Assembly: GCA_964036295.1 (NCBI GenBank)
Contig: OZ038471.1
Location: 6,818,001-6,882,000, forward strand
Source: Plumapathes pennacea
Lineage: Eukaryota; Cnidaria; Anthozoa; Antipatharia; Myriopathidae
Direction: 5' to 3'
DNA: 64,000 nt
The translations under genes and the position numbers were made by a program. The notes beneath the pieces are model-generated. The model was not told where the DNA came from. It saw only the letters and a program-made list of their open reading frames with translations, and made no database searches. Each line of letters opens with the position of its first letter. Within the stretch, counting starts at the first letter, position 1. Shown here in pieces: positions 19,431 through 45,366 of the stretch.

Positions 19431-19722
19431 ATTATTCGCCGAAGTGGAGGTGAATAGCGGTGCGAGCCGTTTCGGCAAGGTAAATATCCACCGCTATTCA
19501 CCGACACTGAGGAGAATAATTGTTTTAGTATATACCACACAAGTTTAATAGCCAACTCCCAAATAGCTATTTTATTTCCGACAAAAGTGGGCAAAAATTG
19601 GGTTCGCGCGCCATTTTGTTTTACCGGAAACCGCCGGGAGGTGAATAGTACTTGATATTCCGAGATTGAGGAGCCAATCAGAGCGCGCAAAAAGCACTAT
19701 TCACTTGTGTGGTATATACTAA
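19431..19722. mobile_element. Composite foldback + MITE, copy 1 (family 2)
   Basis: A hairpin (19431-19520, arms ATTATTCGCCGAAGTGGAGG and its inverse) is joined to a ~200-bp MITE with ends TAGTATATACCACACAAG / CTTGTGTGGTATATACTA. Contains CGCGCCATTTTGTTTTACCG and CCAATCAGAGCGCGC. Copy 2 is at 38474-38779 and copy 3 (MITE part, opposite orientation) at 53221-53417. Confidence 0.8.
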
Positions 19723-20306: not shown

Positions 20307-20614
20307 TTACCAACCAAAAAATTTCTTGCGGCCCTTTCCGGACATGAATTGTTCCAATACAAACTGAGCCACGTCCTTCCGACTGATTTCCTCCAAAGAA
20401 ACCGCCAGCTGTGATACCATCTGATTTCTGTTCAGTTTACTGCGTGTCCGCCAGTTGCATAGCAACTGAAACGCTTTCTCCTGCCCTCCGATGCTCAGCT
20501 GCGTCAACTGCAGAAGTTCCTTGTCCCCAAACCCCAGAAAAGTGCCCAGTTGAGACCATTCCTCCCCGGTCAGCTTGTAGGCAACGCGACGAAGCTCACG
20601 ATCACTTAGGAAAT
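20307..20614 (-). CDS. Gene B exon 33: C-terminal Death domain and stop
   Basis: The last exon encodes about 85 residues with the hallmarks of the Death domain fold: DRELRRVAYKL, EEWSQLGTFLGF, KELLQLTQL, KAFQLLCNWRTRS, QMVSQLAVSLEEISRKDVA. It ends with a basic tail and TAA at 20309-20307. The conserved Trp in helix 2 and the leucine spacing match Death domains of adaptor and receptor proteins. Death domains bind other Death domains in apoptosis and NF-kB-type innate signalling, so the protein probably joins such a complex. The N-terminal codon is split with the previous exon (Asn). Confidence 0.9.
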
Positions 20615-23600
20615 CTATAGGATAAGAGAGATTAGAATAGGCCATATATCCATGATTTGTATCCAATTCCAGCGTTTCAAAACGAGGCCTTGTGCAAAGC
20701 CTCTCTCATGAGATTAGCTTTACTTGCATTTTTAGAAAATCAAACCTATTTTATTTTCAAAACAGAAGTAATAGCCAGTCTCAAACGGCCTGCATTAACT
20801 GACAATTCACTCAATGCGAGTGGCTGCATACCATGACAATAAACCTTATTAGGAATTAAAATTAACAGAAGGAGTGCTGCGCGCCCATTTTGGCCATATT
20901 CTAAAAACATGTATGCTTCCAACTGAATGAGTCCAAGATTGACTCGCCTTGTATTTTGCCCTGCCATGCAGAGTTGTGACAAAGTTGTGCGACGCGTTTG
21001 AACATCATTTGCGGATTTATCCTCTTAACGGTCACTTACTTGTAGCTGCTTCCAATCCAGTCCCTCCGTTTGCATTTGGTGTGTCCCCAGATTCGTCAGA
21101 CACTGAATCGAGGCTGAGGGAGCTGCCGGTGTAAACCCTAGCTTTGTGGAGTTCTTGCTCCAGTTTAGTCTTGACTTGTTCCGCTTGTTCCGCCCGTTTA
21201 TCCATCAACAGCTTCATCTGCCGAATCTTCGAATAAATCACAAGAATGAACATCAGTTAATTGCTTACGAATAGTCTTTGTCACTGCGGACGTGGACCAC
21301 AGGAGGGAAAGTCCAAATCGTTAGTCAGCAATTTGCTTACCCTCAAAACTGGGGAAGGATGAAAGATAATAAGAAAGGGCGTGCCCAGGTTTTGATTAGT
21401 GATATTTAGTAGGAAGAGTTTCAAGTGCCATTGCCAGTTTTTCGTAGATCTGGCTTACAGCGCGTATCGTCCTCTTCATTCATTATCCACCGTACATCTC
21501 TTTACAATCAAGCGTGGACAAAACATAACACTAGCCAATACGAAAATTAAAAGTTAACTGGGGGACAGCGGTGGATTTATATCAAAGGTACAACGTAAAC
21601 CCGGAGAACAAACAAGATAAAGAGGACTGGGAAAACGAGAAGTGAATGGAGAAGTTAATAGAGAGGAGTGGAGGAGGAGAGAAGAGGAGAGAGACAGTGG
21701 GAGAAGTGGATAGCAGTGGAGAAGAGAGAAAGAAGGAGAAGTGATGGCAAAACATATGAAAGAAGGACTGATCACAGCAACAGAGGCAGGATAGAATAGA
21801 AGATGAAAATAGATGTTGGTGAAGAACCCGTAGGAAGGGGAAGAAAAACAAAAGACAAAAAAGGAAGAATAATAGAAGACAAGAGAAATTAAAGGAGAGA
21901 AAGTAGGGAAGAACAGCAAAGAAGAGAAGATCGACGAAGTTGAAGAAAATACTGAAAAATAATAGGAGAGTGAAAACATAAGCAATAAAAGACGGGACAG
22001 GAAAGTGCCGGACTAGAAGAGAAGAGGTCTGAAATGAGAATGAGAGGAGAGATGTAGAACAGAGCAAACAGTGCGCTTGTTACACGCACCACGTTCTGTA
22101 GATCCGCCTCCTTCTTTAGCCAGATCCTTTTTTCGATGCTGTGCTTCTCTGAAAGTTCGGCTTGAAGCGCCATGCATTCCTTTCTGCAATAAAAAAGAAG
22201 CCGCCTAAACTTAATATAAGTTAACTAAAGATCGATATACTTGTTCATGTTCACTATAGGTGGTTTAACTAGCATTGCCTAACAGGAATATTATAAGAAG
22301 TGCATCCACATACACGACCAACTAAGAGTATGGAGAAACACCATGCACAGCTTTACACGGAAAAAGATTATAATGATTTATAGACACTATCGATCGAATT
22401 TACAATCCTGCGATAAGTCACCTCAACCGTTTTGTCCACTTTACTTCCATTTCGTCGAGGCTTTCTTGCAACTTGTGTTGGTATTGGTTCTGAAACTGCT
22501 CCAACTCAGCCTGAACAAAAACGGTCATACACTGGAGTTTAGCTATTTTTGTTGGCCAGCTGCCAGTACACTTTTTAAAATACTATAGTCATGACTTCTC
22601 ACGCGCGATTAGTCAGATTTAGCTCGTCCGTAAATGTATACTGTAAGTATACGTAACTGGCACATCAATAAGTCAGTCTTAATCCGTCCGTCAGTCCGTC
22701 AATCAGTCAATTAATCAGTCAGTCAGTCAGTAAGTCAGCCAATTAATCAGTCAATCAATCGAGTCAGTCAATGAGTCAGTCAGTGAGTCAACCAATCAAT
22801 GACTTGGGCAATCAGTCCGTCAGTCAGTCAGTCAGTCAATCGGTCTGTCAGTCGTCAGTCATTTTTTCAGTCGGCCAGTCAGCCAAGTAGGCAGTCAGTT
22901 AATCAATTAGTTATCAATCAAACAGTCAGACAGTCTCAGTCCACCCAATTATTCAAACTAACACTTCTCAGCAGGGCCCACGTCCAATTAGGTATGAATA
23001 AGGAAGTATGCGCTGCGTGGCAAGGGCATGTGATTGGACTCCATATGTCGATATATGTTACGTTCACAAGCTGTAACAGAACTAACCAGTAAATGGGCCT
23101 CCCTTTGTCGTGCTGTTTTCAGCGTCTCATTGTATTCATCGAGTTCGCCATGTTGAGTAACTTCCTCTCGCCCGTGCACTACCTTGCCCGTTTGACTCAG
23201 TTTGCGCGTTCGAAGCTCACTTCTCAAAGCTTCGTTCTCCTTCTCCATCATGAGAACCTGCTTCTCTTTTGCAGTAGATCCCAGCACCAAATCGTCTTTC
23301 TCTGAAGATAACTTCGCATTCAGAGTCTCCAGTTCATTTAGTTCTTTCTGGAGCAAAGCCGCTGAGCTATTATCACCAACCAACTTTTGACTCAGTTCGC
23401 TGTTTGCCTTTAGTAGTTTGACCTTTTCTTCTTTTAGCCTTTCGACCTCAATCCTGATCGCCTCGTTTTGCTGCCCCGACGTTTCTGGAGAAGCGGTAGA
23501 CAGGTCACCGATTCCCTACAGCAAAACAAAGTCCACAAAAAATTGGTATCAACAACTTATTATGTGGAGGAGAGAATAAACACACCAGGACCCATTTTAA

Positions 23601-26600
23601 GATTCAGTGTTGACCCGAGTATTGAATGGCTTGAGTCACTGAAAATCAACTTCTATGAAATACCGATCAATAGCTTCCAAGGACGGTTTGTTTCTAAACG
23701 ATACTTCTACGTTCGGGACAATGGTGGAAGTTATATGCAATGGTAGAGGTTATACAACCAATTAGCCAACAATATGGGACTCTGCAATAAGGGCACGAAT
23801 ATATTTATGGACTGAGATATGATTTGATTAGCTATCGAGGATGAAGCTATCTACAAGAGGGTGACATATATATGGGATGGGGACGTTTATCGGAAAATGT
23901 AGACATGTGCCAGTGACAGGACATTCACTAGGATAACTGTCTAGGATGGAGGAAAAGAGGATGCGGGAATTGTGCTACCTCTACTACGGGTCTTTGACAA
24001 AAAAGTGATATGTGGTCCAAACAGGTAAAAACCTATCATTTTCTCGTGATTTAATGGGCCCTCACAACCACAGTTGTTTGCACGCCCAAATCTTGAATCT
24101 CCATTTTAAGGGTCCCGAAAATTAAAAGATCATGTTGCAACCCATTTGCGTAGAGAGTTGAGAAAATTGGTCAGTTTTGGCAAACGGTGATATATCTGTT
24201 TTGCTATTGACTTATTGCATTTGTTTGTGTTGGGAACTAAATTAAGCCGCTAAAAGGATATACCAGTAGTTCAAATAGTTACACAATGCGCCTTATTGAA
24301 GATGATTTTTAGTAGGTCCTTCTCTATACTCGCCCTGACTCCTACTCACTGCACAATAGACATTAGAGTTAACGTAAGTGTGTAATTGTTAAGTGCAATA
24401 ATTAAATCTAATAAAAGGAATGACTTTACCATACCCCTTAGTGCAATTTAGACCTTGAATACTGCAGTACTTACGTTGCTAAATTCACAGTAATACATTA
24501 CTTTACGTGCAATTTAGGTGATATTGTGCTTATAAGTGCTTATATGCAGCTTACTTGAAGCTGCAATTGAGTAGCGCAGGCAAGAGCTTACCTGTTGTGC
24601 AGTGCACATGCGCATTAAGCTGCAGTGCGCATCTTTTGTGTTTTAAGGTGCGCAAATACGTAAGCGGGTGTTTTACAAACAGGCGCTGGTGCTTCAAAGG
24701 GCACCAGACTTTTACACAAGACATGCAGCAGTGCAGATACATAAACATTTATATAAGATTTAAAAGAGTGCACATAATATTTATTTTAGTTTTACTTGAT
24801 CATGCGCGGTGCCACCAAGTGCTGACTCCTGTGCAGGTGCTTACTGTTGTACAGTTGACCAAACAAACCTGGTGAAGTTCGATTTTGTCTTACCAGCTCT
24901 CGCGCCAATCCCAGCTCCTCTGCTAGATCGGCATAACGCTGGGTTTGCACTTGCGCGTTAGCCAACGCTTCAAGAACGATTTGCTTCGCATCGGAGGGAA
25001 TAACAGCTGGCTCCAAGGAGTCAGACGTCTCTTTTAGCTGTATTTTATACTCTCCTTCCCGGGGCTGATCGTGTGCATTGGTTTGTACAGTTGCACATAC
25101 TTCAGCGATTTTAGGTTTTAAGAGAGAGCTCTCTTCGTTACCATCTCGCTGATAGGATTTCTTTTCAGGAAACTCGTGACTTCCAGTCTGGGTAGTGGGA
25201 AACACGCTTACAACGCTTTCCTTTCTCGCTTCCTCGAGTTGACCACGCAGCGTCTCTTTCTGCTTCTTCAGCTCTTTTATCTCCTCCTCGTGGACTTGTA
25301 GTTCACTTCTAAGGCTTTGCAGTTCCATTCTCGAGGTTTCCATCTGGCTGTCTTTCTGCTCAGACTCGGTGAATTCGTTCTCTGCCTTGATGCTAGCCGG
25401 CCGATGTTCATACTTGGTTTCGATATTGAGCCCCTGTTTCTTCATCTCGCTGTTCTTTCGCAGATTTTCCAACTTCTGTGTATCAAAGAAAAGAGATAAT
25501 CATGTTATTCGATGGAAGGCTAAGGACGAAAGAGGTGCTATGCAACATAATACATGAAAACTTTCGCGCTCGGATTCACAACTAACGAATTTGACTCTTA
25601 CAACTTCGAACAGTCGAGAAAAACCTAAAAATGTGACCACTAAAATGAAAGCCTTCAATGTATGCTATGTATGTATGCTTTCAATAGTAGTGTTCATTTC
25701 TAACTCTTTAACTATCAATATAACCTGCCGAATACGTGACTCTTCATTTGAAAGTTCTCAATCAATATAATCTAATTACAGTACTCGTACAATTTATATC
25801 TTAACGCAGAAAAAGAAAGACGATAGTAAATGGATTAATCGACTAACCTCACAGTTCTGATTCAGCTTTGTTTCAAGTGCTTCGCACTCTTCTAACTTGG
25901 TCTGGTAGTTGTACGTCAGTCTGGACCACGCCTGGTACAGTTTTGCATTCTGCTCGTTCAGCATTTCCCTGTCTTTTATTAAAGCTGTTAACGCCTCTTT
26001 CATCCTGGACCAGGCCTTGTTTTTCCCCTGAGAAATATCAGCCGCGTTTACACGGAACCCACATGGTAACCTAGCCTCCTCCAAAGGCTTGATGACGTTG
26101 GACACCAGTCTATGTCGCATGGTTTCCAACTCGCAGCGAAGGGTATCATCTTCGTCGCGGGAATCTCGCTCTTGCCGCCCTTTTACTTCTCTGAGTTCTC
26201 TTTCCAGTGTGTTCGCTTTTTCTCTAAGTGGCCTCAGTTCGTGAAGCTCCTTGTCCATGGCCGTTTTCTCCTTCTCGTCTTCCTGTATCATTATCTTGAT
26301 GTCTTCTTTCAACGCTGTTATTGTACCTTCAAGTTCAAACTTCTGCTGCTCTAAACTCTCGCTCTTTCTCCGCTCTTCAACAAGAGAAGACTCCAGATTC
26401 TTCTCCTTAGTTACCGCGACAGAGACGTTTTGTGTTAGCTCCTTTACCACTTTGCTCTTTGAGTGTTTTTGTTCTTTCAGTTCCAAAAAGGCTTGAGACA
26501 TCTTGCTGGCCTCTTCCTGTAGAGTCCGTATTTGGGTTTCCATGTTCTTATTTTCTTTAGTCAGGTTACTCAGCGTCTTCTTTGTCTTGGCATGGTTTTG

Positions 26601-29600
26601 GCTCTCGTACTCCAACTCGTCTTCTAGTTCCCAAACGTTTTTCTCTAGGTGCTCCACCTTTCTCTCGACTGCAAGGCGACTTTGAAGAGCTTCGTGATTC
26701 GTGTCCATCAGATCCTGTACTTCATTCTTCAAGGCTTCTGACTTATTCCGCTCTAAAGCGAAGTCATCTATAATGGCTTTCATTTCCGATTTTACTTTCT
26801 CAAGCTCACGTTCAAGCATGCTATAGTTCCAAGTGCTTTCTTCTCTCTCTTTCTCGAGGAATTCAACTTTAGCTTTCAGCTTCTCCACCTCACTTAACTC
26901 CAGAGTTAGACGTGTTTCAAATATTTGAAGCTCTTCTTTGAGACAGGCATGCTCTTTACGAAGCGTCTTCCCGATGTACCATAGCTCTTTCCGTTCGTCT
27001 AGAAGCTGTAATGCTTCTCTCTGGAGGATTGCTATGGTCTTCCTCGTCTCCGAGCTTTCTGTGACGTGTTTCTCAAAATCTTCTTGGAGCTCCCTTAATC
27101 GCTTCTTCAAAAGAAGCTCGCTTTCACTTTCACGACTATACTCCTTCGCCGGAACTTCATCCAAGAATTTGTCCTTTTGTTCATTAATAGGAACAGTGAA
27201 ATTATCCGCCATCTGCATGGATATGTTCGCAGGATTATCATTGTTGCCCGCGTTTTTTGGAGTGGAGATACGAGTGGCTCGTTCAGGTTGTGAATCCTTG
27301 TGTTCGCTTAGAATAGTTTCAAGTCCAGATTGTAATTTCAGCAGTTTCTGGGAGTCTTCTTTGTTTTGTATCTCGAGGTTATTCAGTGTCTTTTCCAAAT
27401 TCTGGATCCGTTGTCTTCCATCTTCTGTCTCCTTTGTCTGCTTTTCCAAGTATCTTTCCACCTCTTGGATTCTCTTTTGAAGTTGAGTCCTTCCCACGAG
27501 ATATTTACCAGAGTGGTCATCGCCTTCGTGTTCTTCTTTATCAGCCATCACCAAGCCCTCATCGAGACTCGAATCGCTTTGGAAGCTCTCTTTCGCAGAG
27601 CCACCTCGTTCCTCTATCACAGAAGACTGCGAGGAGTAAGGTGTACTGGATTCTTCTTTCTCAATGACATCTTCAACATTTTCTGTGTTGAGTTGATTTT
27701 TCACTTCGGAAGCGTTTATTTCATCTGACCATAGGGGCTTGAATTCACTTTCGTGAGTGACGACTCCTTCATAGCCCTGCGAGCTAAGTGGAGTGCACTC
27801 AGATGATTGAACTTCTTGGAATGTTACGAGATCTTCCTGTAATGGGAGTTGATTTTCCTAGAAATTTAAGGGATTAATATGATACCAGGACACAAAAGAA
27901 AACGAAAGCCTTCAAGACTTCACTTTGCACAAGTAGAATTCAAAGCAGTCGGTTTCCTGAGGAATTTCAGCGATTGTTTTGTGGTACCAGGAAACAAAGA
28001 AAGGGTTGATGGACTTTGCCTAATGTTAATACTAACAATGACAGGACTAGTAATCGTTGACGATCATCAGACTGTTTCAAAATTTAAAATAATACTGTAT
28101 TCCTGGCATCTTTTAAGATTTGGGCTCAAAATGTGACCAAATTGACATTTTGCCAATTCTGGTTTGTGGGCGATGCTCCACCCGCTTCAACAAGCTATCG
28201 AACTATATTATGCTCGGGCTCATTGATTGATTGTCATTAGTTATCTCATTCATGAGTTTAGTTCAGTTGACAGAAAGTGTAGACAATTTATGAAAAAACC
28301 TTTAAACTAGAAAAAAAGTCTGGTATAATCATCAAATATAGTGATTTTTTGTTGTTACAAGAATGTGATGACAGAACATTATGCGCTGTCATCTAATTTC
28401 TGAGAGTGCAATACACACACCCCTTATTTCCCCACCCCTCCGCATCATACAATATATAGTGATTTATCTAATGCGGGCATGAGTTAGCCCTGTGGTAGAA
28501 TCATAGGCTAAAAACAACTACAGAAAGACTGAATGCTTTCCTATGTAGTTGAATGATTGTGCGTTTCTCTCCCAAAATATGGAAGAAACCCACATTTATC
28601 CCTGTCATTGCTAAAATATCTTACCTTCTTTTGTGAAATCACCTTCTCTTCCGATTCAAGAGTTCCCTGAGCCTTGGCATCAAGCTTCCTCTGAAGTAGA
28701 ACAATCTCCGATTTCAGTGCAGCGATGGTAGAGTCCTCTCGCTCTTTGTTGTCACCCTGAACTTTAGCTAATTGTTGCTCCAGAAGATTACTTTGCTCCA
28801 TAGCCGCTTCCAACTTAGACTGGAGCTCGTTTTCTTCTCCTGTGGTCGTTAGCAAACTTTTATATTCCTTTGTTAGTCGCTCGTATTTCCCATTCAGTTG
28901 ATTGAGCTCAGTGTCGCGGTGATTTAGGTCATTTTCCACGCGCTCCTTTTCTTCCTCGAGAGAAGAAACTCTCTCTTTGAGATGCGAGAGTTCTCCCTCA
29001 AGATCTCCTGCAAGAATATAGCGTTTTCAGGCAAAGCGAATAAAGTTGACCACATGCAAGGCCTTCATCAACCACATTGCTCTGCCAGCTCGACAAACAT
29101 ATGCTCCGAGTTCAGCGTTCACCTTAAAGCATGTGCTAGCCCAGCCCTTAAACCTTAAACCTAACCATCCTAATTTTAACAACTGAGACTGATCTAAATC
29201 TAAGAGTTTAGAGACTTCGGGTTGACTTATGTGTTAAAATGGAAAATCCTGGTTGTAATAAGAGTACAATTATTTTGTTTCTGGTTGGTTGAAATTATCT
29301 CCTTGTGGCTTCTACAATTGTCGGGTAATCACTTGAATATAGACGACAGAAAACGCGAAAATGCATCGCACTTGCTGCTGTTACCGTCGCATGAAGCATT
29401 GAGGGCGCATCATACAACAGTGCCCAACATGGTGTACAAACGAACGCAACACGTTGTGCCTAAGGCACTGCTGGGCGATGTTGTGCCACCATATTGCGTT
29501 CGTTTGCTCAGGATGCTTAGATGGATGCAGCTTAGTTATGTCTTGTACGACCGGGTCTTAACTGATCAAATTTTCCATCTAAAAAGTGAACTCACCTGGC

Positions 29601-34717: not shown

Positions 34718-34748
<31 letters not shown>

Positions 34749-34756
34749 GTGATGAC

Positions 34757-34798
<42 letters not shown>

Positions 34799-37700
34799 GG
34801 TTATATATTATGATGATGATAATGATGATGACCATGATGATGATGGTGATTTAACACATAATTCAAGATAAGTACTCCTGACCAAAAGATGCGACAAAAC
34901 AATGTCTTACCGTCCGACCTCCTCCTCTATGGCGTAATACTTGTCCACTTTGTCTTCGCGGATTACCACGTTTTGAATCTCTGTCTCCTCTTCAGACGCA
35001 TCGCTTTCTATCTCTAAATCACTGTTCTCGACTGTGAAAAAAATATCAACAAAATATGTCAAAGAAAGACAAGCAAAGAACCTGTAAATTCCTTTACAAT
35101 CTTAGTAATAACGGAGGCATGTGTGTGCTATGTTAAATTAGGCGGTATGTAAAAATACCCTAGAATTTCTGCCATGATGCATTCAATTCATTATGTTTGA
35201 TTGAAATGCGGCGCGAAAAACGATTTCAACACCGCGCTTTGGTATCGTGCATTGCGGGCGATAAATCAGAAAAGATAGTCAAATTGCGTATACCCATCGG
35301 CCTATGAGCCGTTTCGGATGACTGTCGAAAGTAATCGTCTGATTAATTTGGTTTTGCCTTGTTACACTTGCACCATCCGCAACTGGCGGCGTAATTACTT
35401 TGACAGTTGGTTTTCAACAATCATGCTAGAACCGCTCTACTTCCCGAATTAACTGCAAGTTTAAAACATGCCGAGTTGTGGAATAAAAAGGCCACTGTCA
35501 CACTCTTGCGCAGCTGGCGAGGTTGAGAAATTCTCGCCAACCACTTGACAATCACACTTGGCAGGCAAAATTAAGAACCACTCCATTTGGCAAAGTTTTG
35601 GGGAAATAAAACCAAAGTCAGTAGACATTTACTTAAAGCAGCCACTCGTTCATATGGGAAGTAAAAGGCACTAATAACTATACTACACATGATGGTAAAA
35701 GTAGGTGATTCACGACAGAAGCCGTGAAAAATATGTACATGACGTCATGTGACGTACCTTCCACCGTCATGTACCCAGCACACGTGACCCGTCCAGCTTT
35801 GTTCTGTGCAACACAGCAGTATTCTCCAGTATCGTCGTCTTCAACGTTGCGAATGACAAGTGAGTGTTTACCTTCTCCGTGATCAATAAAAGAATGTCTC
35901 TCTCCTTCAACGACATCAACAGCATTCTTAAACCACTCCAGCTCACATTCAAGATCCCCGCTCACGACTACATCCAATGAAATGGTCTCTCCTTCCTTGA
36001 TGGTGACGTCATTGAGTTCTTTGTCGAATACCGGAGGCTCTGTTGAAAAATAGACGATACTAGTTAAATTCAGTCCAAAATAGTACTGTATGCCAATTGG
36101 ACAAAGCATTAAAGCCTCTGGGTTTATATAACTTCGTCAGGGGCGTATTGAATTTAAAAGACTAGTGGGCCAATAACAGGTGACATATAAGTGGGGTGAG
36201 AGGGGAGGAGAGGGGAGGAGGGGGGGGGGGGGGGGGGTATAAGTGGGATTTTACGGTATAAAGAAAAAAAAAAACAGTTCACTCACCCAAAGACCCGATG
36301 TCCTCTTCAATAGTGAGGTAGCCAGCGCACGTGGTCCGCCCCCCGGGATTCTCGGCAACACAGCAGTATTCACCTGTATCGTCCTCCTCTGCATCCTGAA
36401 TGAGCAGGGAGTGCTGTCCGTCACCGTGGTCTACAAACGAGTGCCTATCGCTTTCCTCCACGTCCACTCCGTCCTTGAACCACTCCAGCTTACATTCGGA
36501 CGCACTCTGCACCACCACATCCAGAGAGACTGTCTCACCTTCGTGTGCTGTCATGTCTGACAGTTCTAACTCGAATTCGGGCGGGTCTGTTTGGAACACC
36601 AAGAAAGAAAGAGTCATGCATGTATTTTGTAATGCTAGTGATAACCAGAAAACATTTTTAAACCGTTATCTGTGATTTATCTTAACGGATATGTAATTCA
36701 TGCATCTAATGACCACCGCCAAAACTTCAAAATTGAAAATAACAAAACTTACGTTGGACACTCCAGTAACTTATTTCAGTAGTTAGCCCTTTCACTCCTG
36801 AGAGTGATCAAATTCAATTTTCTCCTTTTTTTCAAGGGAGATATATTTTATATTTTTAGAGAATTTGCTACTTGATAGTTTGTTTAGATAAAAGCTGATT
36901 GGCTTATCAATTCTCACTTCATCGCTCATACACTTTCTTCCAAATGGTTGGGAGAATTTGTATTATGAGCTCAGAAGTGAAAGGATTAAAGTAACATTTC
37001 TATTCAAGTTGTGGTATACGTTTAAGGTACGCAAATAAAGGTAGCTGTTGTTGATGACATTTTGTCAAAAGATAAACATTTGGCCTACTGCATCGATTTT
37101 CCATTTAAAACATTGTGTTTTTGTTTGTTGAAATAGACATGTAGTCTAACGCTCAGGTAGCCAGGCTTGTTCAATATGCTGAGCAATCCTCTTCTCCAGT
37201 GTAATGACAGTTAGTTTGTTGATTCATTATTTACTATTTCGATCATAAAACAGAATGAAGACAATCAAATAGCACTACGATGGCTGAGTCGCTAATATAT
37301 AGATCAGGGGTGGAGTGGATATGGAGGTTCAAGTTCAAAGTTCAAGGTTGAAGTGTTATAAATGGCCCAAGCATCCTTTTACAATAGCTTTGACGCTCAC
37401 CTAACGGTTCCTTGTCTTCCTCCACTGTGACGTAACCATCGCACGTGACTCGTCCTGTCCCGTTCTGAGCCGCGCAGCAGTATTGTCCCTCGTCGTCATC
37501 TGTAACGTCCCGGATGACGAGTGAATGATGTCCGTCTCCGCCATTAACGAAAGAGTGCCTTCCTCCCTCAGTTAAGTCCATGCCATTCATAAACCACTCT
37601 ATCTCACACTGAGGATCTCCACCAATCACTACCTCCAGAGTAACGGAGTTGCCTATGCTCACTGCCACGTCTTCGAGGTCTTTCAAGAAAACCGGAGCTC

Positions 37701-40300
37701 CTGACGAAGAAGGGAGAACACTCTCAATTACAGCGACTCCTTCATCGTATTTATATAATCACTCTGTATACAAACAAAACATGATACTAGAGTTCACGTT
37801 TTTCCTCCCAATCATACGGCCCCTGTTTCAAAACAATTCCTGATGCAAACATCTTGGATGAAAATATATTAATTTACGTGAAACATGTAAATAACTTTCT
37901 TGATACGCTGTCAACCCAGTCTCTTTAAAGCATTTAGTTTTTCATGGTTTTGTTATATTTTTGAATTCAGTTAAGTATCCAAAGCAGAAAACAATGACAT
38001 CTTAAGAACGTGATAGATGGGACAACTACAGTATACAGTGCTTCATACTTAAAGTGGGTTTTTTTGCATTCAGCTTCACTGCGGGAATGTCCTGATTTCC
38101 CTCGCTGCTATCGTCCTTTGCGGCCATAACTGTGGGTAAAGAGGGTGCTATGGAGGCTCGAGGCTTTTTGAGGCCAGACAACATGTTTAAGGACGACGAC
38201 AAACGGCGAACAGCAACCAGAGCATTGACTGATTTCTGTGAAGAGAAACGAAATAGAAATCAGTTTGAAACGGTTCTGTCAAAGCTTGCAAGTTACAGCT
38301 GAATAGTCCATTTTAGAGTCGCCCTCAGTGTACGTTTCAAAACTAGCATCAATAAGGACGCATAAAACATAGCATAGAATAGAAAAAGCTATGCAAGTTA
38401 GATTTAACAAAAGATGTCGATACTATACAAGAGAGACAGATTTTGTAGTAATAACCTTTGAAACTAGTTAACTATTATTCGCCGAAGTGGAGGTGAATAG
38501 CGGTGGATATTTACCGAGCCGTTTCGGCGAGGTAAATATCCACCGCTATTCACCGACACTGAGGCGAATAATTGTTTTAGTATATACTACACAAGTTTAA
38601 TAGTTTAATAGTTTAATAGTTTAATATTTTATTTCCGACGAAAGTGGGCAAAAATTGGGTTCGCGCGCCATTTTGTTTTACCGGAAGCCGCCGGGAGGTG
38701 AATAATACTTGATATTCTGAGATTGAGGAGCCAATCAGAGCGCGCGAAAAGCACTATTCACTTGCGTGGTATATACTAACGTTTGCTATCCGCGCCATTT
38801 GATACTGGACGACACGAAAACGTACAACGTGAACACTGCATTGTAGTATAGAATGACATTCTCATTGAGGGCTTTATGTCACACTTCAGTGTTCTTCACG
38901 CCAATTTTTGTAAGTTCAGTCAAATTCGTGGAAAGCGTCACAGAGGAGTCAAGTAAACTAAGTAGTTACTGACCTGCCATCTCCTCTTCGCCAAGAACTG
39001 CTTCAACTTTTGAGTGTTGATCTTGACAGCGTTCGCTGCTGCACTGTCAGCGTTCGCTGTTTTCTTCAAGAAACATTCATTCAGAGAAAAGGCGTTTAGT
39101 TGACAGCTGAGTCAGAAACAACTGTTTTCGTCCCAACAAACCTTTGGAAAATTGATTGGAAAAGCTTTTTTAGTATCAGTAATATTAGTTTCAGTTAGTA
39201 GCTACCTGCATCCAAGCGTGCGCCAAGCTTTCCTCAACTGTATTGCGTTCCCTGATGAAAGAAAATGAGGCGAATGCTAAAGCACAGGTATAAAATAGGT
39301 ATAAAATGACCCAAATGATGATTTAAAAACATTATAAAATGCAGTAACATGAATACTTGATGTACCTATCGAGAGCTTTTGGTATATTTAACAGTTCAGG
39401 AACTGTAAGTTTTCTAGCTCGAGTTTAAATCGCCTTTGGCATAAAAAAAAATTGTAAATAGCTACATGAGAGACTAGATGTGTGAGCTTTGGGCAAAAGA
39501 AAAACACCCATAAATCAATGTCCTATGGAAAAAGGACATCAGACCATCTTTACACTATATTCGTTGAAACAGATTCACGTAAACTCACCCAGGATTTTGT
39601 CGCAGCAGTTGGGTAATAAAGTCCTTGGCCTCGTCAGAAATGACGTCAAAGCTTTCATCATCAAAGTCCCAATCGGCAGCCGTCACATTTGACAACGTCT
39701 CGTTGTCATCGTCGCCCATAAAAGGAGAGAGACCACTGAGACTACAAAAGTAAAAGACAGCAAATACAGATGAATCAAGTAGCAACAAGTAACAACAATG
39801 ATACCAAATGCACTTCCTTCTGCCAATACTACCACCGTTATTAACTTGGTACCCATCTACGTACCAACCTTACAAAAGTCCTAGCAACCAACCAATCTTA
39901 TCTACCCAGCTGCCTGCCTAATAATCGTCACTTATCCACTTTCCTTGCACGACTGCAATACTTATACATACATCTGACATTTCCTTGTACAGCTTCATTT
40001 TTAATTGGGTAGTTAAAGCTACATGCGGCTACAATGTACTTACAGAATGTATGCAATGACTCCTACACCCCTGTAAAAAGAAGTTTTCTTTGTCAGACAA
40101 TGTTCACTTTGCATTACACAGTCAAACACCTATTAAACGGACGCCCTTAGGGACTTGAGAAGTGTCCGCGAAAAAGAAGGCTCGCTAAAAATGAACTTTA
40201 GGTGTAGTCAAACACATTATTTAAATGTGCAACTGGCCACAATAGCATATAGGTTATAGGGATTTAACAAAGCAAATATTTTGCTATTCATATGAAAAAA

Positions 40301-40363
<63 letters not shown>

Positions 40364-43300
40364 ATTCTCTGTCACATGCGTGTTGGTTGCTGTCGTTTTC
40401 TTTTGACGTCCGGCATGGAAAGTGTGAATTCAGATTGTTTGAAAAATTCCCCATAGGGACTGTAGGAATGGTGTCAGCAATCACTTAATTGAAGTAAAGT
40501 TCACGGTATCTGTATGACTGAGTAGATATTTTGGAGTTTTACAATTGTCCGCTTAACACAGAGCCACCTGTACAGGTTTGACTATAGCCGTAGATGAAGA
40601 TGATAATGTTCTTGATAGTGATGTTGATCATGATGAGCAAGATAATGTTGTTGTTGATAATAGATTAAACTCATGATAGGATCATACTCACCACATATCG
40701 GTTCCAAGAGATAAACTGTCAAAGTTAACCGCTTCTGGTGCTGAAAGGACGACACACTATTAACACATGAACGTATCGATTCCTATGAAATACATCATCG
40801 AAAATTATGTCGGATGATTATAAAATCTGTAAACTAATGTAAAGAAGATACTAAACCAGGCCATTCAAATAGAGGGACGGATAGTATCACTTGACTGTTC
40901 GAGCGGTAGACATCTTCGGAGTCAAGTGCAGAGACATTGTCATAAAATGTCATAAAATAATCTTGGATATATATTCTTAGTCGCACTCAATAATTGCATT
41001 CACGTTCTGCTTCAGCGGGCTATTTAGTTGCTATATATACGCGTTAAAGTCAAGTCTTGGGGTGGTTTCACTTATATATGCCACCGATATACACGATTAT
41101 GCACATTAACAGAGAGGACTGTGTTTGCTCTTCTTAAGTTTTAACTGGTACAAGGCTAGATAAAAAAAAGCCAAGGAAACCAGTGCTCTATACTCTCCTT
41201 CCAGAGTCATGTCGGAACACCAAGTTCCAGAACTAATTCACAGCACCTGCCGACAGACCTTAACCCTTTCACTCCTGGGCCCGGTTGTTCAAACCTTGGT
41301 TTAGGTATCCCACGGTTAACCAAATTCTTTCTCTAATGCTTTTGCCGGCAAACTGCAGAGTTTCAACTTACCCATGAACTCTGGCGTCCCTTTTAGTCCT
41401 TTGAGTTTCTGTCCCGGTACAAGCACTTGCGCCAGTCCGAAATCAATCAGCTTAATATCCCAACTGTCTTTACTGACGCACACGATGTTCTCCGGCTGAC
41501 GAGAGATCCAACAGATGTCCATTATATAATATAGTCGCATGTTATCAAAAAGTGACAGAAACAGATTCACGCACTCTTTCGACAAGCATCAGCATGACTT
41601 CTTTAATGAACCACTGATGCAATAACGCCGGCACACAGATATTAGGAAGGACGGGTCACGAATTGTACTAAATTTAGGCATTTTAAGGCCCGTTTCGAAC
41701 GTAGCGCCACTGCTGTGCCTAACGCAACGCAAATTAGGTCAAACAACGGATTTTGCATTGCACTTGCATTGAGCTCGGCACGGCAGTAGCGCGACAGTTA
41801 AAACGGGCCTAACCATTACGATTTTAGTCTTTAAATTGCCAGGTAGAATCCTATACATGCAATTCGAGTAGTTCTACTGTTAAATATAGTGTTATATATA
41901 CATATATCGGTACATTGAACGGTACAGCTTTGTAGTACCATAGGAAACGCACAGTAGACACTACTTTAACATGGACATATATGCAGACAAACTTGTAGCA
42001 TATTTTTTAGTACCTTGAGGTCAAGATGCACGATGTTTTTCTTGTGCATATGCTGTAGTCCTTGAAGCAACTGGTGCATATAGTAAGCTCCTTCTTTCTC
42101 TGTTAGGCAGTCGTTCTCGGCCACGCGTTCAAAGAGCTCTCCCCCCGATATACTGAGAATTAAACAAATCGTGGGTCAGCATCAATGTACGAGTGCACTG
42201 CAGAAACCCCCATCCCCCCCCCTCCCCCCCCCCCCTCTCTCTTTCTCTCTCTTTTCTCGTGTGCCCTTTTTATTCATTCATTCATTCATTCTCATTTTTC
42301 CTTTTCATTCCCAAAAACGAATTGGATTCAGCCTCGGAAACGAACTCCTCTGGAACTGGTAGATGCATGTGTGGCCACTCAAATATGAGAGCTCTCAGTG
42401 AGTGAGTACATTGCTAAGTCGGTGTTCATATTGCTATCGAGTGGAGTACAGTTTAACTTTAATCTGGGCACATACACACATGACACTGGAAGGGATAAAA
42501 TATCTGAATAGAACCTCCAGTGAGAGAAATCACTACGAGACACACAAAAAACGACAAATCAAATGCACGGCACCGTGGTAATAAGTCGTGCATCTCAGGG
42601 CTTTGGGCGTCACTTACAAATCCATGATCATGACCACGTCCCTGGGGGAGTCGAAGCCATCTACCAATCCCACAAGCCTCTTGTGGTGCAGCTTGCTCAT
42701 AATATCAATCTCCTTCATGACGTCATCACGGGTGCAGATGCTGGAGAGCTTGATGTACTTTGCGGCGTAGATCGTGTTGGTGGACTTTTCTGTCACTTTC
42801 TTCACGACTCCGAACTTCCCTCTGAAATGAGACAGGGGAATAACGTTTTCATGGCGTATTAATATCAATCAAATACGAAAAGTGTAAAATTGGAACTGAT
42901 GGAAAATGTACAATTACCTTGACTATTTGTTTGGGTTCAACATTGTCTTCATCTATCCTACAGTATTTGTTGAAAATTTCGAAGAGACCCTCAGCAGTGT
43001 TTCTGTCACCAATCTCAGGAGATGGGCTGCTGTCAATATCTTTTTATTTATGAATTATAACTTATCTCTCAGCCCTAAGTGTCTTACCGTCAGAGTAACA
43101 ATTTTGCTTCAGCATTTATCCTAGCCCGCGGATACAGTCAAATCGGAACCGGAAGCCTGAGGATACAGTCGAACTGGAACCGGAAGCACCCCGATGGGAA
43201 ACTGCTGTATCCGCAGGCTAAATTTTATTCAGGATGCAAAATAGCAATAAATCGGAGAACCTACTTGCCGACCTCTCCGTGAACGATGTAGTGATCTTCA

Positions 43301-45366
43301 ACTTTAGATGTCTTGAGAGTTATAGGGGGCCTCGGCTCAAGCTCAAGGTTTTCGACATCTATAGATAAAGAAGTTAGTAGAATAAGTGAAGAGAAACAAG
43401 GAATGGATGGACAGATAGAGCAAGGATAGACCAGAAACCAACTCAACAAAGATGTAGACATGTATTTTAGAAGTTGGATCAGTAATCTGATAACACTAAA
43501 CGGACTTTAATCTGACAAAAGTAGGAAAAGAGTCGCGAATAAAGGCATGGTTGCAACAGCATTGGCGCGCTTCATCATGCAGGGAAATAATTGGTCTCCA
43601 GGGGACAATTCAATAAAGCATTTACAAGTGTATTAATTAAATTGTTGTATTAAAGTCGGATTAATTCGTCTGCATGTTAAGACTCATTTTAATCCAATAC
43701 CATGGCCAAAATATGTTACAGTTATTCAGGTGAAACTGGTATCTGTAATATTTTGCAGAGCTTTGCTTGATTAGAGTCCGTTTAGTGGTCTTTGAATAAT
43801 GGTCCAACTTGTAAAATAGCTTGTAAAACATTATATTAGCTTGGCCCAAGATCAGCAAAAGTTCAATAATAGCAAGAAAGCTAAGGAAATGAGAAGGCCA
43901 TGAAGTGAAAACTTTCAGAGCGAGGTTAAGTCGCTTCTGTACTCTTCCCATCTTCCTTTGCGCGTGCGTTCTGATTTAGACATTTTGATTGTCCGTATCA
44001 AATAAGAAAGCAATAAACGCCTACATTAACAAAGAGAACTTGGACAAAACCCAGAGGATGAGAACAGGGAGAACAAACAGAGGGTCATGAACTGCTGTGA
44101 TAGCGTTGTGCTGTCGCGTGATAATATCTTAAACCATGAATCAAAACATGAAATATTACACATTTTATTCATTCAAGCGTTGTTTTGCGGCCATTATTTA
44201 GGTATACAAAGAAATACAAACAGACAAAGGATGAAAACAAAGGCTCGTAGCGAGCTGCAAATTGTTTCAAAATTTTCCCACGCTATAGATATTAACGTAC
44301 GACACCTGTTCGTTGCATCTGTGTAAATATTGAGTACTCAGCAGCGATACTTTCCAGTCATGGTAAGTTTGTTGGAATGCGCTGTCTAAGATTTGAATGA
44401 AACGTGATAGTTTGGGCGGCCATTTTAGAAATCCACTTTTAAACGTCCAAAATAAATTGCTAAGGACAAAATGCAGATACATCTGAGTTTACTGAGAGCT
44501 GCTCGCATGTATATATATGCTGTAGCAATGGGTTTGGTATACAATTCTTGTTGAAATTAGGTGACAGTGAAGGGATCAAAGCATCCAGAGAACACTTCTT
44601 TAAATGAAATTGTAAATAACAAAGTTGTACCTGTATTGGTGACTTCTTCCTTCATTTCCTGATGCGGGGGACTCTGCAAGAATCACATAATTGTGTCTTA
44701 GTTAATAAATTCGCCTGCAGGTTTCTCTCCCACCGATTAACGTTTGCACTTCAATTACGAAAGCAATTAAATCATTTAATAGTAGTTCATTTGGCCGTAA
44801 ACCATTGATAAATCAGTTTTGTTAAAACTTGATTTCTGGCAAAAAGTTCTTGTGATAAATAGACGTCTTGGAGTACAACCGAATTGCTGTGTCACAAATT
44901 TAGATCAAGTTAGACGTGTCCTGTTCAATAATACTATTATGACCTACAAAAGCCCTTCGAACTAAAGAAAAAATCAACAAATCGAATAATAATAATAATA
45001 GTAGTAGCACTTTAGTTGTAAGTTGTTTACTCATTGCGTTATTGATAAAACAAGACAAACAGTGCTTTAAGAGAATGGATGTTGGGATATACTGAGAGTA
45101 TTAATCTAGAGCCATGCCATAGCTGAAAAACTCTTAATAACATTACTTAAACACACTGCAGTGAAGAGATCAGCACTTTTGCAAAGACGTATTTGGTATT
45201 CAGTACTAAACGATAGATTTAGGAGTAAACGAGATTCTACGCGGACCTAGCTTAACATATATGGAGTTGTAAACATTTACGCCGAGCATAACGACCCTGC
45301 AGAAACTACCCGTGCACGGTAATGTGTCAACACGCGAAAGCAACTAACCTCCAGAAAGGAAGACAT
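20307..45366 (-). CDS. Gene B: MLCK-type kinase / CaM segment / 3 Ig / second kinase / coiled coil / Death domain protein (33 exons)
   Basis: Exons in transcription order (high-low): 45366-45349, 44673-44631, 43358-43265, 42821-42618, 42152-42014, 41495-41372, 40740-40692, 40070-40044, 39735-39589, 39251-39206, 39063-38974, 38235-38049, 37700-37401, 36586-36287, 36039-35758, 35031-34911, 34629-34429, 33721-33589, 33342-33219, 32669-32621, 32470-32444, 32293-32144, 31712-31667, 31216-31138, 30537-29596, 29007-28625, 27857-25848, 25475-24894, 23515-23087, 22510-22422, 22183-22090, 21226-21040, 20614-20307. All introns are GT-AG and every junction keeps phase. The total is 8004 nt, 2667 residues plus TAA. 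Approximate residues: kinase 1 45-297, CaM-like segment 315-345, Ig 389-683, kinase 2 717-967, coiled coil 994-2560, Death 2568-2653. No signal peptide or membrane segment is seen, so it is probably a cytoplasmic kinase/scaffold. The start is the ATG of an 18-nt first coding exon preceded by a TATA box. Alternative: the two halves are separate genes, but the join from kinase 2 to the coil (31667 to 31216 to 30537) is phase-clean. Confidence 0.87.
21040..21226 (-). CDS. Gene B exon 32: end of coiled coil and Ser/Gly-rich linker
   Basis: 187-nt exon, residues ~2504-2566. It opens IRQMKLLMDKRAEQAEQ (coiled coil) and then becomes a Ser/Asp/Gly/Asn-rich linker (GSSLSLDSVSDESGDTPNAN), which probably frees the Death domain from the rod. 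Confidence 0.82.
22090..22510 (-). CDS. Gene B exons 30-31: short coiled-coil exons
   Basis: Exon 30 (22510-22422, 89 nt) encodes AELEQFQNQYQHKLQESLDE and on to RLR. Exon 31 (22183-22090, 94 nt) encodes KECMALQAELSEKH and on to ADLQNV. They join through a split Arg codon. Both continue the coiled coil. Confidence 0.82.
22665..22965 (+). repeat. Degenerate CAGT/CAAT tandem repeat in gene B intron
   Basis: Imperfect 4-bp units (CAGTCAGTCAATCAGT-like) over ~300 bp within the intron between exons 29 and 30. The ORF across it (NQSVSQSVNRS-like) is a repeat artefact. Confidence 0.85.
23087..23515 (-). CDS. Gene B exon 29: coiled coil
   Basis: 429-nt phase 0-0 exon, residues ~2300-2442, opening GIGDLSTASPETSGQQ and then heptad-rich to TARQREAHLL before GTTAGT. 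Confidence 0.85.
24894..25475 (-). CDS. Gene B exon 28: coiled coil with polar insert
   Basis: 582-nt phase 0-0 exon, residues ~2106-2299. It has two coiled-coil stretches (opening KLENLRKNSEMKKQG and closing ADLAEELGLARELV) separated by a polar, Ser/Thr/Pro-containing segment that is probably flexible. Confidence 0.85.
25848..27857 (-). CDS. Gene B exon 27: 2-kb coiled-coil exon
   Basis: The largest exon, 2010 nt and 670 residues, phase 0-0. The first ~110 residues are acidic and Ser-rich, probably disordered (starting ENQLPLQEDLVTF). The rest is long coiled coil interrupted near residue 180 by a short low-helix stretch. A segment with PCGFRVNAADISQGKNKAW late in the exon breaks the heptads and may be a hinge. 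Role inferred: oligomerisation or spacing between kinases and Death domain. Confidence 0.9.
28625..29007 (-). CDS. Gene B exon 26: coiled coil
   Basis: 383-nt exon, residues ~1308-1435, continuing the heptad pattern (GDLEGELSHLKERVSSLEEE). It joins the preceding exon through a split Gly codon and ends in phase 0 with VISQKK before GTAAGA. Confidence 0.85.
29385..29510. repeat. Small foldback in gene B intron
   Basis: ACAAACGAACGCAA (about 29436-29449) is inverted as TTGCGTTCGTTTG (about 29494-29506), with CAACATGGTG / CACCATAT flanking matches. A short imperfect inverted repeat, likely a MITE remnant. Confidence 0.5.
29596..30537 (-). CDS. Gene B exon 25: long coiled coil
   Basis: 942-nt exon, residues ~994-1307, almost entirely heptad-rich and rich in Glu, Lys, Leu, Gln and Arg with no stops (for example ELEKKLKKLLVQVNNLQ). 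Proline is almost absent after the first few residues. Predicted to form a long alpha-helical coiled coil for dimer or oligomer assembly. It resembles many unrelated coiled-coil proteins, so no specific homology is claimed. Confidence 0.88.
30664..30930 (+). repeat. Degenerate CAAGTCAACA tandem repeat in gene B intron
   Basis: Imperfect ~10-bp units (ACAAGTCAACACAAGTGAAT-like) just upstream, in transcription terms, of exon 25. Confidence 0.8.
31138..31216 (-). CDS. Gene B exon 24: linker from kinase 2 to coiled coil
   Basis: A 79-nt exon encodes a short polar linker starting GESSVDENSNMLINGQ. It receives phase 0 from the end of kinase 2 and passes phase 1 to the large coiled-coil exon. This exon is the key evidence that kinase 2 and the coiled-coil/Death half belong to one transcript. 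Confidence 0.78.
31667..35031 (-). CDS. Gene B kinase 2 (exons 16-23), atypical MLCK-type kinase
   Basis: Exon 16 is an acidic linker (VENSDLEIESDASEEETE) ending in the glycine loop. Visible motifs are EEVGRGRFGIV, ATP-binding lysine in CAKYIK (K745), helix C Glu in KKEVDTM, ARGGDLLSRL, catalytic loop HLDLKPQN (Asp833), IDFSLSRKF (DFS 853-855), GTAEYVGAPEVL, TDMWAVGVMGYMM, and KKRMTASECTEHPWIK. Lys, Glu and both Asp residues are kept, but the metal-binding DFG glycine is Ser and PEN is PQN, so activity may be reduced or altered. Exon lengths parallel kinase 1 (124, 49, 27 and 46 nt are identical), showing origin by internal duplication. No calmodulin-like segment follows. Confidence 0.9.
33419..33562 (+). 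repeat. GTT/GTC trinucleotide-rich microsatellite next to kinase 2 exon
   Basis: Mixed GTT, GTC and ATT triplets, ending 27 nt from the donor side of exon 18 (33589). Confidence 0.9.
33892..34131. mobile_element. MITE-like element, family 1, copy 2
   Basis: Left end GGCCCGATCGTTCAAAGCTG and right end TACTTTGAATAACCGGGCC are inverted, with the internal AATCCAGGATTAGCCTAATT like the element at 1950-2193. Lies in the intron between kinase 2 exons 17 and 18. Confidence 0.7.
34683..34850 (+). repeat. (GAT)n microsatellite in kinase 2 intron
   Basis: Two GATGAT runs (34683-34798 and 34810-34850) separated by AAGGTTATATATT. The long His/Met ORFs through it are artefacts. It lies upstream of exon 17 in the intron. 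Confidence 0.95.
35758..36039 (-). CDS. Gene B exon 15: Ig domain 3
   Basis: Third Ig exon, 282 nt, phase 1-1, opening EPPVFDKELNDVTIKEGETI, core CELEWFKNAVD, F strand DDTGEYCCVAQNKAG. It is slightly shorter than its two neighbours at the C-terminal linker. It joins to exon 16, an acidic linker that leads into kinase 2. Confidence 0.88.
36191..36237 (+). repeat. Purine/G-rich run in intron between Ig exons
   Basis: GGGGTGAGAGGGGAGGAG-type units ending in 19 G, about 50 bp from the donor of exon 14. Confidence 0.9.
36287..36586 (-). CDS. Gene B exon 14: Ig domain 2
   Basis: Second 300-nt phase 1-1 exon, close in sequence to the flanking Ig exons (opening DPPEFELELSDMTAHEGETV, core CKLEWFKDGVD, F strand DDTGEYCCVAEN). 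It has the same missing B-strand Cys and extra Cys before the Trp as domain 1, showing that these exons duplicated after the change. Intracellular scaffold or spacing role is inferred. Confidence 0.88.
36787..36985. mobile_element. MITE-like element (family 3, CCCTTTCACT ends)
   Basis: The left end CCCTTTCACTCCTGAGAGTG is inverted at the right end as CTCAGAAGTGAAAGGA. Related partial copies are seen at about 4690-4860, 46503-46685, 52895-53015 and 54118-54306 (shared GGGAGAATTTG, CAATTTTCTCC and AAGCCAAGTTCTCT segments). No coding capacity. Confidence 0.65.
37401..37700 (-). CDS. Gene B exon 13: Ig domain 1
   Basis: One 300-nt symmetric exon (phase 1 at both ends) encodes one intracellular Ig/I-set-like domain of about 95 residues, starting APVFLKDLEDVAVSIGNSVT. 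It carries the core Trp in CEIEWF and the F-strand motif DDDEGQYCCAAQN. The B-strand position that normally holds Cys is Val, and a Cys sits two residues before the Glu-Trp pair. Exon-per-domain structure fits expansion by exon duplication. In titin/MLCK-family proteins such domains usually tether or space the kinase. Confidence 0.88.
38049..39063 (-). CDS. Gene B exons 11-12: MLCK-like autoinhibitory / calmodulin-binding segment and linker
   Basis: Directly after kinase 1, exon 11 ends AKRRWQ and exon 12 begins KSVNALVAVRRLSSS. This matches the composition and order of the calmodulin-binding region of vertebrate smooth-muscle MLCK (a basic cluster, WQK, then a basic-hydrophobic run ending RRLSS/GRLSS). 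In that family the segment blocks the active site until Ca2+/calmodulin binds. The rest of exon 12 is a Ser/Pro/Lys linker leading to the Ig domains. Kinase 1 is therefore inferred to be Ca2+/calmodulin controlled. Confidence 0.82.
38474..38779. mobile_element. Composite foldback + MITE, copy 2 (family 2)
   Basis: Same structure as 19431-19722: hairpin 38474-38573 with the full loop (GATATTTACCGAGCCGTTTC), then the MITE with TAGTATATAC ends. Contains an extra direct repeat GTTTAATAGTTTAATAG. In the intron between exons 11 and 12 of gene B. Confidence 0.82.
39206..43358 (-). CDS. Gene B kinase 1 (exons 3-10), MLCK/titin-like Ser/Thr kinase
   Basis: A complete protein kinase fold is spread over exons 3-10. 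Visible motifs are the glycine loop VGKGKFGVV (residues ~50-58), the ATP-binding lysine in AAKYIK (K73), a Glu in KEIDIM as the helix C candidate, the catalytic loop HLDLKPEN (Asp164), IDFGLA (DFG 184-186), the activation segment GTPEFMGAPE, DMWGVGVIAYIL, and the C-lobe end ERNTVEESLAHAWMQ. HLDLK in place of HRDLK and the HAWM ending are typical of the myosin light chain kinase/titin/DAPK branch of the CAMK group. All core catalytic residues are present, so it is predicted active. The 27-nt exon at 40070-40044 is a microexon inside the C-lobe. Confidence 0.92.
40300..40365 (+). repeat. (TAAA)n microsatellite
   Basis: About 16 TAAA units in the intron before kinase 1 exon 8. Confidence 0.95.
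41278..41362. repeat. Half copy of family 1 element abutting a kinase 1 splice donor
   Basis: GGGCCCGGTTGTTCAAACCT, then AACCAAATTCTTTCTCTAA and GGCAAACTGCAGAGTTT match the left half of 33892-34131. The similarity stops about 10 nt from the edge of exon 6 (41372). Confidence 0.6.
41686..41810. mobile_element. 125-bp TIR element
   Basis: AGGCCCGTTTCGAACGTAGC at the left is inverted at the right as GCGACAGTTAAAACGGGCCT. The inner arms are also similar (CACTGCTGTGCC / GGCACGGCAGTAG). Small MITE in the kinase 1 intron. Confidence 0.7.
42206..42256 (+). repeat. Pyrimidine-rich C/CT run
   Basis: Poly-C blocks followed by CTCTCTTT, close to the acceptor of exon 5 (42152) but on its intron side. 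Confidence 0.9.
44631..45366 (-). CDS. Gene B exons 1-2: N-terminal leader
   Basis: Exon 1 (45366-45349) encodes only six residues, MSSFLE, and ends in phase 0 before GTTAGT. Exon 2 (44673-44631) encodes an acidic, Pro-containing stretch starting SPPHQEMKEE and ends in phase 1. Neither has a recognisable domain. An AG 15 nt before the ATG would let exon 1 act instead as a 33-nt internal microexon in the same frame, so the status of exon 1 as the true start is not certain. Confidence 0.6.

Follow-up and report, generated by a model that had tools for sequence, protein, structure and literature searches.

A cnidarian gene predicted to join two kinases, a variable number of Ig domains, a long coiled coil and a C-terminal Death domain

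Introduction

In DAPK, a Death domain is combined with a kinase under Ca2+ control; the Death domain of DAPK1 lies at the C-terminus of the protein, and a basic-loop insertion after the VAIK strand of the kinase serves as the fingerprint of the DAPK family. Other described proteins carry more than one kinase, or join a kinase to a Death domain in a different setting. Obscurins carry tandem kinases (available part of PMC10129394), and the cnidarian connectitin comprises Ig domains, two or three kinases, SEC14, spectrin repeats, RhoGEF, PH and SH3 (available part of PMC12198301), while the actiniarian 'Novel Gene 3' is described with a kinase, a central Roc/COR, an SH3 and C-terminal Death and TIR domains (available part of PMC5094078). 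Death-domain counts and Apaf-1-like domain combinations are treated in PMC2246300, in which the term kinase does not occur; for Acropora digitifera, PMC3750612 lists genes of the DAPK and Death-domain kinds, with no kinase-kinase-coiled coil-Death protein in the portion accessible; and the accessible text of PMC5978004 concerns CARD-CC/Bcl10/MALT1 and does not bear on a double-kinase Death protein. Among the matches listed in the open-access literature, there was no description of a double kinase-Ig-coiled coil-Death architecture.

Here, we describe a gene with this architecture in the antipatharian Plumapathes pennacea, located in a stretch of 64,000 nucleotides (contig OZ038471.1, hereafter the window). 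As far as we have looked, the family is undescribed rather than unseen, because its proteins are already present in public databases under other names.

The predicted protein is akin to DAPK1 in its CaM-type kinase with an autoregulatory segment, as judged by sequence, and in its C-terminal Death domain; kinase 1 finds its best solved-structure matches in DAPK1 with its tail (275 bits over kinase and tail), MYLK4 (271 bits) and twitchin (269 bits). In contrast to DAPK1, it has two kinases, Ig domains and a coiled coil, no Pfam match to ankyrin or Roc-COR was obtained up to E 0.001 in its 2669 aa, and the six residues of the basic-loop insertion are absent in the alignment to DAPK1 (2x0g). Smooth-muscle MLCK, twitchin and MYLK4 appear, by sequence, similar in kinase type, CaM-type segment and I-set Ig, whereas the window protein adds a second kinase, a long coiled coil and a Death domain. 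Tandem kinases with Ig in between are shared with obscurin, SPEG and UNC-89, and the obscurin-like P0008 and P0010 are among the best matches outside Cnidaria, yet the window protein has three Ig domains, a coiled coil and a Death domain, and no joint clade was formed with these kinases in a tree whose backbone is unresolved. No Pfam match to Fn3, RhoGEF or PH was found up to E 0.001 in the 2669 aa. Ig domains and multiple kinases are likewise common to connectitin, but its SEC14, spectrin, RhoGEF, PH and SH3 were not found in the window protein by Pfam, and Novel Gene 3 shares a kinase and a Death domain but, as described in the available part of PMC5094078, is without tandem kinase, Ig or coiled coil.

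Materials and methods

Exons were placed by splice signals and joined by script. The homologue search scored 7971 candidates that shared most words with the query and fell within the length range, and identities per exon were calculated for five relatives. Heptad periodicity is given as the z of hydrophobic residues against shuffles. The kinase tree had 26 rows, drawn from the window, 14 of the 75 proteins found, three solved-structure kinases and citron kinase as outgroup; P0016, P0023 and P0059, which are among those 14, gave no kinase over the cut and thus have no row, and P0035, citron and both P0014 rows sit on long branches.

Results and discussion

A single predicted gene of 33 or more exons

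The initial annotation of the window had proposed that 33 exons with consistent phases form a single gene for a kinase, a CaM segment, three Ig domains, a second kinase, a coiled coil and a Death domain. As summarized in Table 1, we rebuilt this 33-exon chain on the minus strand from 45366 to 20307, with all introns being GT/AG, phases agreeing at every joint and no internal stop, so that exon number and phases stand as proposed; the coding sequence measured 8010 nt including the stop (2669 aa), and the earlier figure of 8004 nt was replaced. The single gene is supported by the rebuilt chain, by Pfam and by colinear predicted relatives, and the architecture of this kinase-Ig-kinase-coiled coil-Death gene is firm.

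Table 1. Positions of the features of the kinase-Death gene and of its upstream neighbour, in window coordinates
Feature	Position	Strand	Basis and remarks
Neighbour: coiled coil, PDZ domains, SH3; 1053 aa from 14 phase-consistent exons, possibly incomplete at either end	51936..61617	-	ZO-1/DLG5-like
Start exon ATGG/gtaagg (M and first base of G), long isoform	49570..49573	-	gives MGL start
N-terminal coiled-coil-like exon, 470 nt	47313..47782	-	in-phase join to exon 2
First exon of the initial annotation, MSSFLE	45349..45366	-	no clear homologue in relatives
Exon 2, variable linker, 14 aa	44631..44673	-	0-14% identity in five relatives, without support from them
Kinase 1, exons 3-10	39206..43358	-	Pkinase; catalytic residues examined present, including DFG
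Segment KRRWQKSVNALVAVRRLSS, putatively autoinhibitory and CaM-binding, with linker; exons 11-12	38049..39063	-	motif and DAPK1 alignment
Ig 1 (I-set), exon 13, phase 1-1, 300 nt	37401..37700	-	Pfam; repeat family D4
Ig 2 (I-set), exon 14, phase 1-1, 300 nt	36287..36586	-	Pfam; repeat family D4
Ig 3 (I-set), exon 15, phase 1-1, 282 nt	35758..36039	-	Pfam; repeat family D4; 64% identity to P0001
Kinase 2, exons 16-23	31667..35031	-	Pkinase; DFS replaces DFG
Exon 24, short variable linker, 26 aa	31138..31216	-	0-26% identity, without support from relatives
Coiled-coil region, exons 25-32	21040..30537	-	heptad periodicity; residues 1148-2719 of long form
Death domain and stop, exon 33	20307..20614	-	PF00531 and six-helix model

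In contrast to the start at 45366 given by the initial annotation, the gene runs 5' to 49573, a start exon and a coiled-coil exon having been missed. The latter exon lies in an open frame (47804-47304) that reads LDKLQELEERNSELEEL...; it has a heptad z of 2.3, and its identity to the N-termini of P0001 (Montipora), P0004 (Nematostella) and P0006 (Acropora), over 116-120 residues, amounts to 57.5-58.6% (E 2e-36 to 4e-36). Two sites of ATGG followed by GT are found between 53000 and 47782, and only the one at 49573 then continues with A or G; the resulting MGL start is common to the window, P0001, P0004 and P0006. Joined to the 470-nt exon and to exon 2 onward, this ATGG gives an in-frame long form of 8466 nt and 2821 aa. 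As P0002 and P0005 start elsewhere, with a short alternative beginning (MERLFE...) and not with MGL, the MSSFLE exon may, on sequence comparison, at best represent an alternative first exon. An inverted repeat (46098-46284) with 72-nt arms, 97% complementary and spaced by 43 nt, is present upstream of the alternative first exon.

Two kinases of common origin and one calmodulin-type segment

Two Pkinase stretches (E 9e-137) were identified by Pfam in the 2669-aa protein. The segment following kinase 1 aligns to the DAPK1 autoregulatory tail and carries the motif KRRWQKSVNALVAVRRLSS, which is present in the window and in 5/5 relatives examined, once per protein and after kinase 1; this WQ-type CaM motif has no second copy behind kinase 2 in the window or in these five relatives. 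For kinase 2, the best solved-structure matches were twitchin (255 bits), MYLK4 (241 bits) and DAPK3 (239 bits). In the window, this second kinase keeps Lys, Glu, the HLD Asp and the DFG Asp, with only the DFG glycine lost, the motif being DFS in the window, P0001 and P0003, DFT in P0006, and DFG in P0011 and P0075. A reading of kinase 2 as a clear pseudokinase was rejected, given the presence of these four residues and the glycine kept in Rhopilema and P0075.

All seven intron positions and phases examined are common to kinase 1 and kinase 2 (7/7), which indicates, at the level of gene structure, that the two kinases arose by tandem duplication. In the 26-row tree, the six rows of cnidarian kinase 1 form one clade (99/97), the anthozoan kinase 2 sequences form a clade of their own (99/99), and kinase 2 of Rhopilema and P0075 falls into a separate clade (100/100). 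Between the cnidarian kinases and those of MLCK, twitchin, DAPK1 and obscurin, the backbone of this tree is unresolved. The earlier proposal of a MLCK/titin-like kinase with a CaM segment and an Ig/coiled-coil linker, possibly invented independently of DAPK, is partly supported.

Ig domains are variable in number

Three I-set stretches were obtained (E 4e-62, Pfam), and the DNA of the corresponding exons, compared over 193 nt, is mutually 70-71% alike (family D4). Since each Ig domain lies in a single phase 1-1 exon and the exons retain this likeness, Ig copies can be gained or skipped with the frame kept. The window protein has three Ig domains, Nematostella P0003 two and Montipora P0001 one; Acropora P0006, Rhopilema P0011 and P0075 lack them, and the number may differ between isoforms. 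Ig 1 and Ig 2 are mostly unaligned in P0001, where 20 and 16 of 100 residues, respectively, are aligned.

The coiled-coil region

Approximately 1,570 residues had been described as mostly coiled coil. Strong heptads extend over 891/1572 residues, with z of 6.2 in exon 25, 6.4 in exon 26 and 10.0 in the later part of exon 27, compared to controls of -0.4 (kinase) and 0.9 (Ig); in the other 681 residues z amounts to 1.0-2.7, so that the description applies to the former part and less so to the latter. Exon 27 (25848-27857, minus strand) contains a conserved island, RHRLVSN...PLEEA...AADI...GK.KAW, for which three relatives show 36-47% identity with the window (alignment A2). No convincing family match to this island was obtained, the best values being E 0.059 among solved structures and E 0.013 in Pfam.

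The Death domain

Scanned alone, the C-terminal domain of the window protein reaches 38.1 bits against the Pfam Death model PF00531 (E 1.7e-9, cut-off 22.6), and within a 562-aa C-terminal piece 32.5 bits. The Death domains of 5/5 relatives are above 22.6 bits when likewise scanned alone; in whole-protein Pfam scans, P0003 passes (28.1 bits), P0011 is below the cut-off (18.6 bits), and Death is not listed for P0001, P0075 and P0006. The predicted structure is a six-helix bundle (pLDDT 87.7). A fold search matched it to Death domains with a ranking that is non-specific, ankyrin-G being equally near, and profile matches were led by RIPK1, a death-pathway protein (E 0.007), followed by PIDD (0.13) and ankyrin-3 (0.24).

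The domain order is kept in gene models of other cnidarians

The initial annotation would have been contradicted if no other species had kinase and Death domain in one protein. At the level of gene models this is not the case: kinase-kinase-coiled coil-Death is present in one gene model in Nematostella, Montipora, Acropora, Rhopilema and P0075. Nematostella vectensis is represented by P0003 (2749 aa) and by P0004 (2013 aa), which lacks the part matching exon 27; both isoforms keep the kinases and the Death domain. The Montipora foliosa protein P0001 has 3258 aa, those of Acropora palmata and A. muricata (P0005-P0007) have 3030-3161 aa, and Rhopilema esculentum P0011 (1833 aa) shows the same four parts in one model, with a weak alignment after kinase 2 and a coiled coil shorter than that of the window. 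The Nematostella C-terminus as query found seven proteins (P0001-P0007, including the query) among 3372 candidates, and the Rhopilema C-terminus found itself and P0075 among 1926 candidates.

Identity to P0001 is 50-88% in the exons of kinase 1, CaM segment, Ig 3, kinase 2 and Death domain, with the exceptions of exon 12 (49%) and exon 16 (42%); it is 21-35% in the coiled-coil exons 25-29 and 50-68% in exons 30-32. Judging from these alignments, the domain order is not due to chance, because P0001, P0003, P0004 and P0006 are colinear through both the kinase 2-coiled coil and the coiled coil-Death joints. The kinase-kinase-coiled coil-Death gene thus looks real and long conserved, and its layout is probably old within Cnidaria, being found in gene models of sea anemone, coral and jellyfish. 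In the databases, the Nematostella proteins P0003 and P0004 go by 'rootletin-like' and 'SPEG-like', and the others are unnamed or named after fragments; such names hide a double-kinase Death family.

A PDZ/SH3 gene next door

The neighbouring gene encodes two PDZ stretches by Pfam (8e-19) and a third weak match; its SH3 is below the Pfam cut-off, with a ZO-1 PDZ3-SH3 match at 834-983 (E 8.7e-16), and its coiled coil has a heptad z of 4.8 over 216 residues (control -0.6). No GUK domain was seen by eye among the open frames between 51936 and 45366. The N-terminal coiled-coil exon of the kinase-Death gene has no similarity to this coiled coil (best E 0.75), and an origin of the exon by duplication from the neighbour was therefore dropped.

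P0075 (EukProt) is a single predicted protein that the kinase tree places as sister to Rhopilema. It is colinear with the neighbour over residues 469-1341 (27%, E 2e-76); from residue 1390 onward it matches stretches of the kinase-Death protein, at 56% in kinase 1 and 25% at the Death end. P0075 matches both genes, which indicates, as far as this predicted protein is correct, that the two are adjacent in both lineages, or form one gene in that of P0075. The fusion of the neighbour to a homologue in P0075 hints that the protein acts at junctions or the cortex and less in the manner of DAPK. A more far-reaching and rather doubtful extension would be that, since before the anthozoan-jellyfish split, a junction-type scaffold of coiled coil, PDZ and SH3 has shared one cnidarian locus with a Ca2+/calmodulin-controlled double kinase that bears a Death domain, and that in at least some species both are parts of one polypeptide, which would anchor at cell contacts, read Ca2+ and assemble a Death-domain complex.

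A proposed working and its alternatives

On balance, we hold with middling confidence that the locus contains one long-conserved cnidarian gene for a Ca2+/CaM-switched double-kinase scaffold, docked through its Death domain and working with the PDZ/SH3 neighbour at the junction or cortex. Its layout would read (coiled coil)-kinase 1-CaM segment-0 to 3 Ig-kinase 2-long coiled coil-Death. At rest, the segment after kinase 1 would block the active site of kinase 1, and binding of Ca2+/calmodulin to KRRWQKSVNALVAVRRLSS would free this kinase for activity; kinase 2, its duplication partner (DFS/DFT in Anthozoa), may act as a weak or docking kinase or as a modulator. The coiled coils would bring about dimerisation and set the spacing of the molecule, which the Death domain at its C-terminus would dock to a Death-domain partner. 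A Ca2+ signal would in this manner lead to local phosphorylation, with myosin light chain or proteins of the junction or cortex as the most likely substrates, at a scaffold that includes the ZO-1/DLG5-like product of the neighbouring gene.

MLCK acts at tight junctions, and it is this role, together with the neighbour gene, that leads us to place the protein at the junction or cortex. The junctional role is suggested by one neighbour, by one gene model (P0075) that is possibly mis-joined, and by a fold ranking that is non-specific. Such a protein would represent a second layout of Ca2+-kinase and Death domain, built from other parts than DAPK, and it bears on whether Death-domain kinases arose more than once; it also offers a gene for probing how cnidarian Ca2+ (stress, contraction, bleaching) is linked to junction tension or cell death.

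The chief rival, tentative but deserving attention, is that the protein is a cnidarian analogue of DAPK which evolved apart from it, and whose Ca2+/calmodulin kinase promotes cell death while the Death domain recruits death-pathway partners. The same pairing of CaM-type kinase and C-terminal Death domain, the rank of DAPK1 with its autoregulatory tail as best solved match of kinase 1 and that of RIPK1 among the Death profiles are consistent with this scenario, but ankyrin, Roc-COR and the basic-loop insertion are missing, the Death fold is equally near to ankyrin-G, and the scaffold neighbour is of junction type. Membership in the DAPK family itself was rejected, as ankyrin and Roc-COR were not found by Pfam and the basic loop is absent from the alignment to DAPK1.

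It appears unlikely that a coiled coil and a Death domain were here added to a muscle gene of the obscurin/SPEG/UNC-89 type, with the product serving as a scaffold of the contractile apparatus in cnidarian muscle. Although tandem kinases with Ig in between would fit such an origin, and the hemichordate obscurin-like P0008 is the best-scoring named match outside Cnidaria, neither Fn3 nor RhoGEF nor PH was found by Pfam, P0006 and P0011 have no Ig, and the cnidarian kinases are not joined to obscurin/SPEG kinases in the tree, the backbone of which is unresolved.

A further reading, which we likewise consider improbable and rank after the muscle gene, takes the neighbour and the kinase-Death gene as one transcription unit (coiled coil-PDZ-SH3-kinase-kinase-coiled coil-Death), with shorter isoforms produced from internal promoters. 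P0075 is a single predicted protein of this kind, and the phase is 1 both at the end of the neighbour's last exon and at the start of the 47782 exon; such a phase fit, however, has a 1 in 3 chance, and P0075 may be a mis-joined prediction. Moreover, the anthozoan models P0001, P0004 and P0006 start at MGL, and if the last donor of the neighbour is read through, its frame can also end at a stop 15 codons further along, an AATAAA being present at 51006.

That two adjacent genes, kinase-Ig-kinase and coiled coil-Death, were wrongly joined is very improbable and was rejected: despite an AATAAA at 31300 in the intron preceding the poorly conserved exon 24, whose in-frame ATG could start a coiled coil-Death protein, the joint is kept by alignment in predicted proteins of three genera (Nematostella, Montipora and Acropora), one Rhopilema model contains these domains together, P0003 and P0004 of Nematostella both keep kinases and Death domain, and the open frame of exon 25 has no ATG upstream of its acceptor.

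Repeats in the window

A short interspersed repeat occurs in three nearly identical copies, at 19463-19722, 38515-38779 and 53220-53426, two of which have 207 nt in common at 100% in inverted orientation; the repeat is probably a recently active MITE. An open frame at 1007-1546 on the minus strand resembles, by eye, the end of a LINE reverse transcriptase, and a cluster of repeat families (D2, D3, D5 and D6) with copies 62-95% alike occupies 14352-16308.
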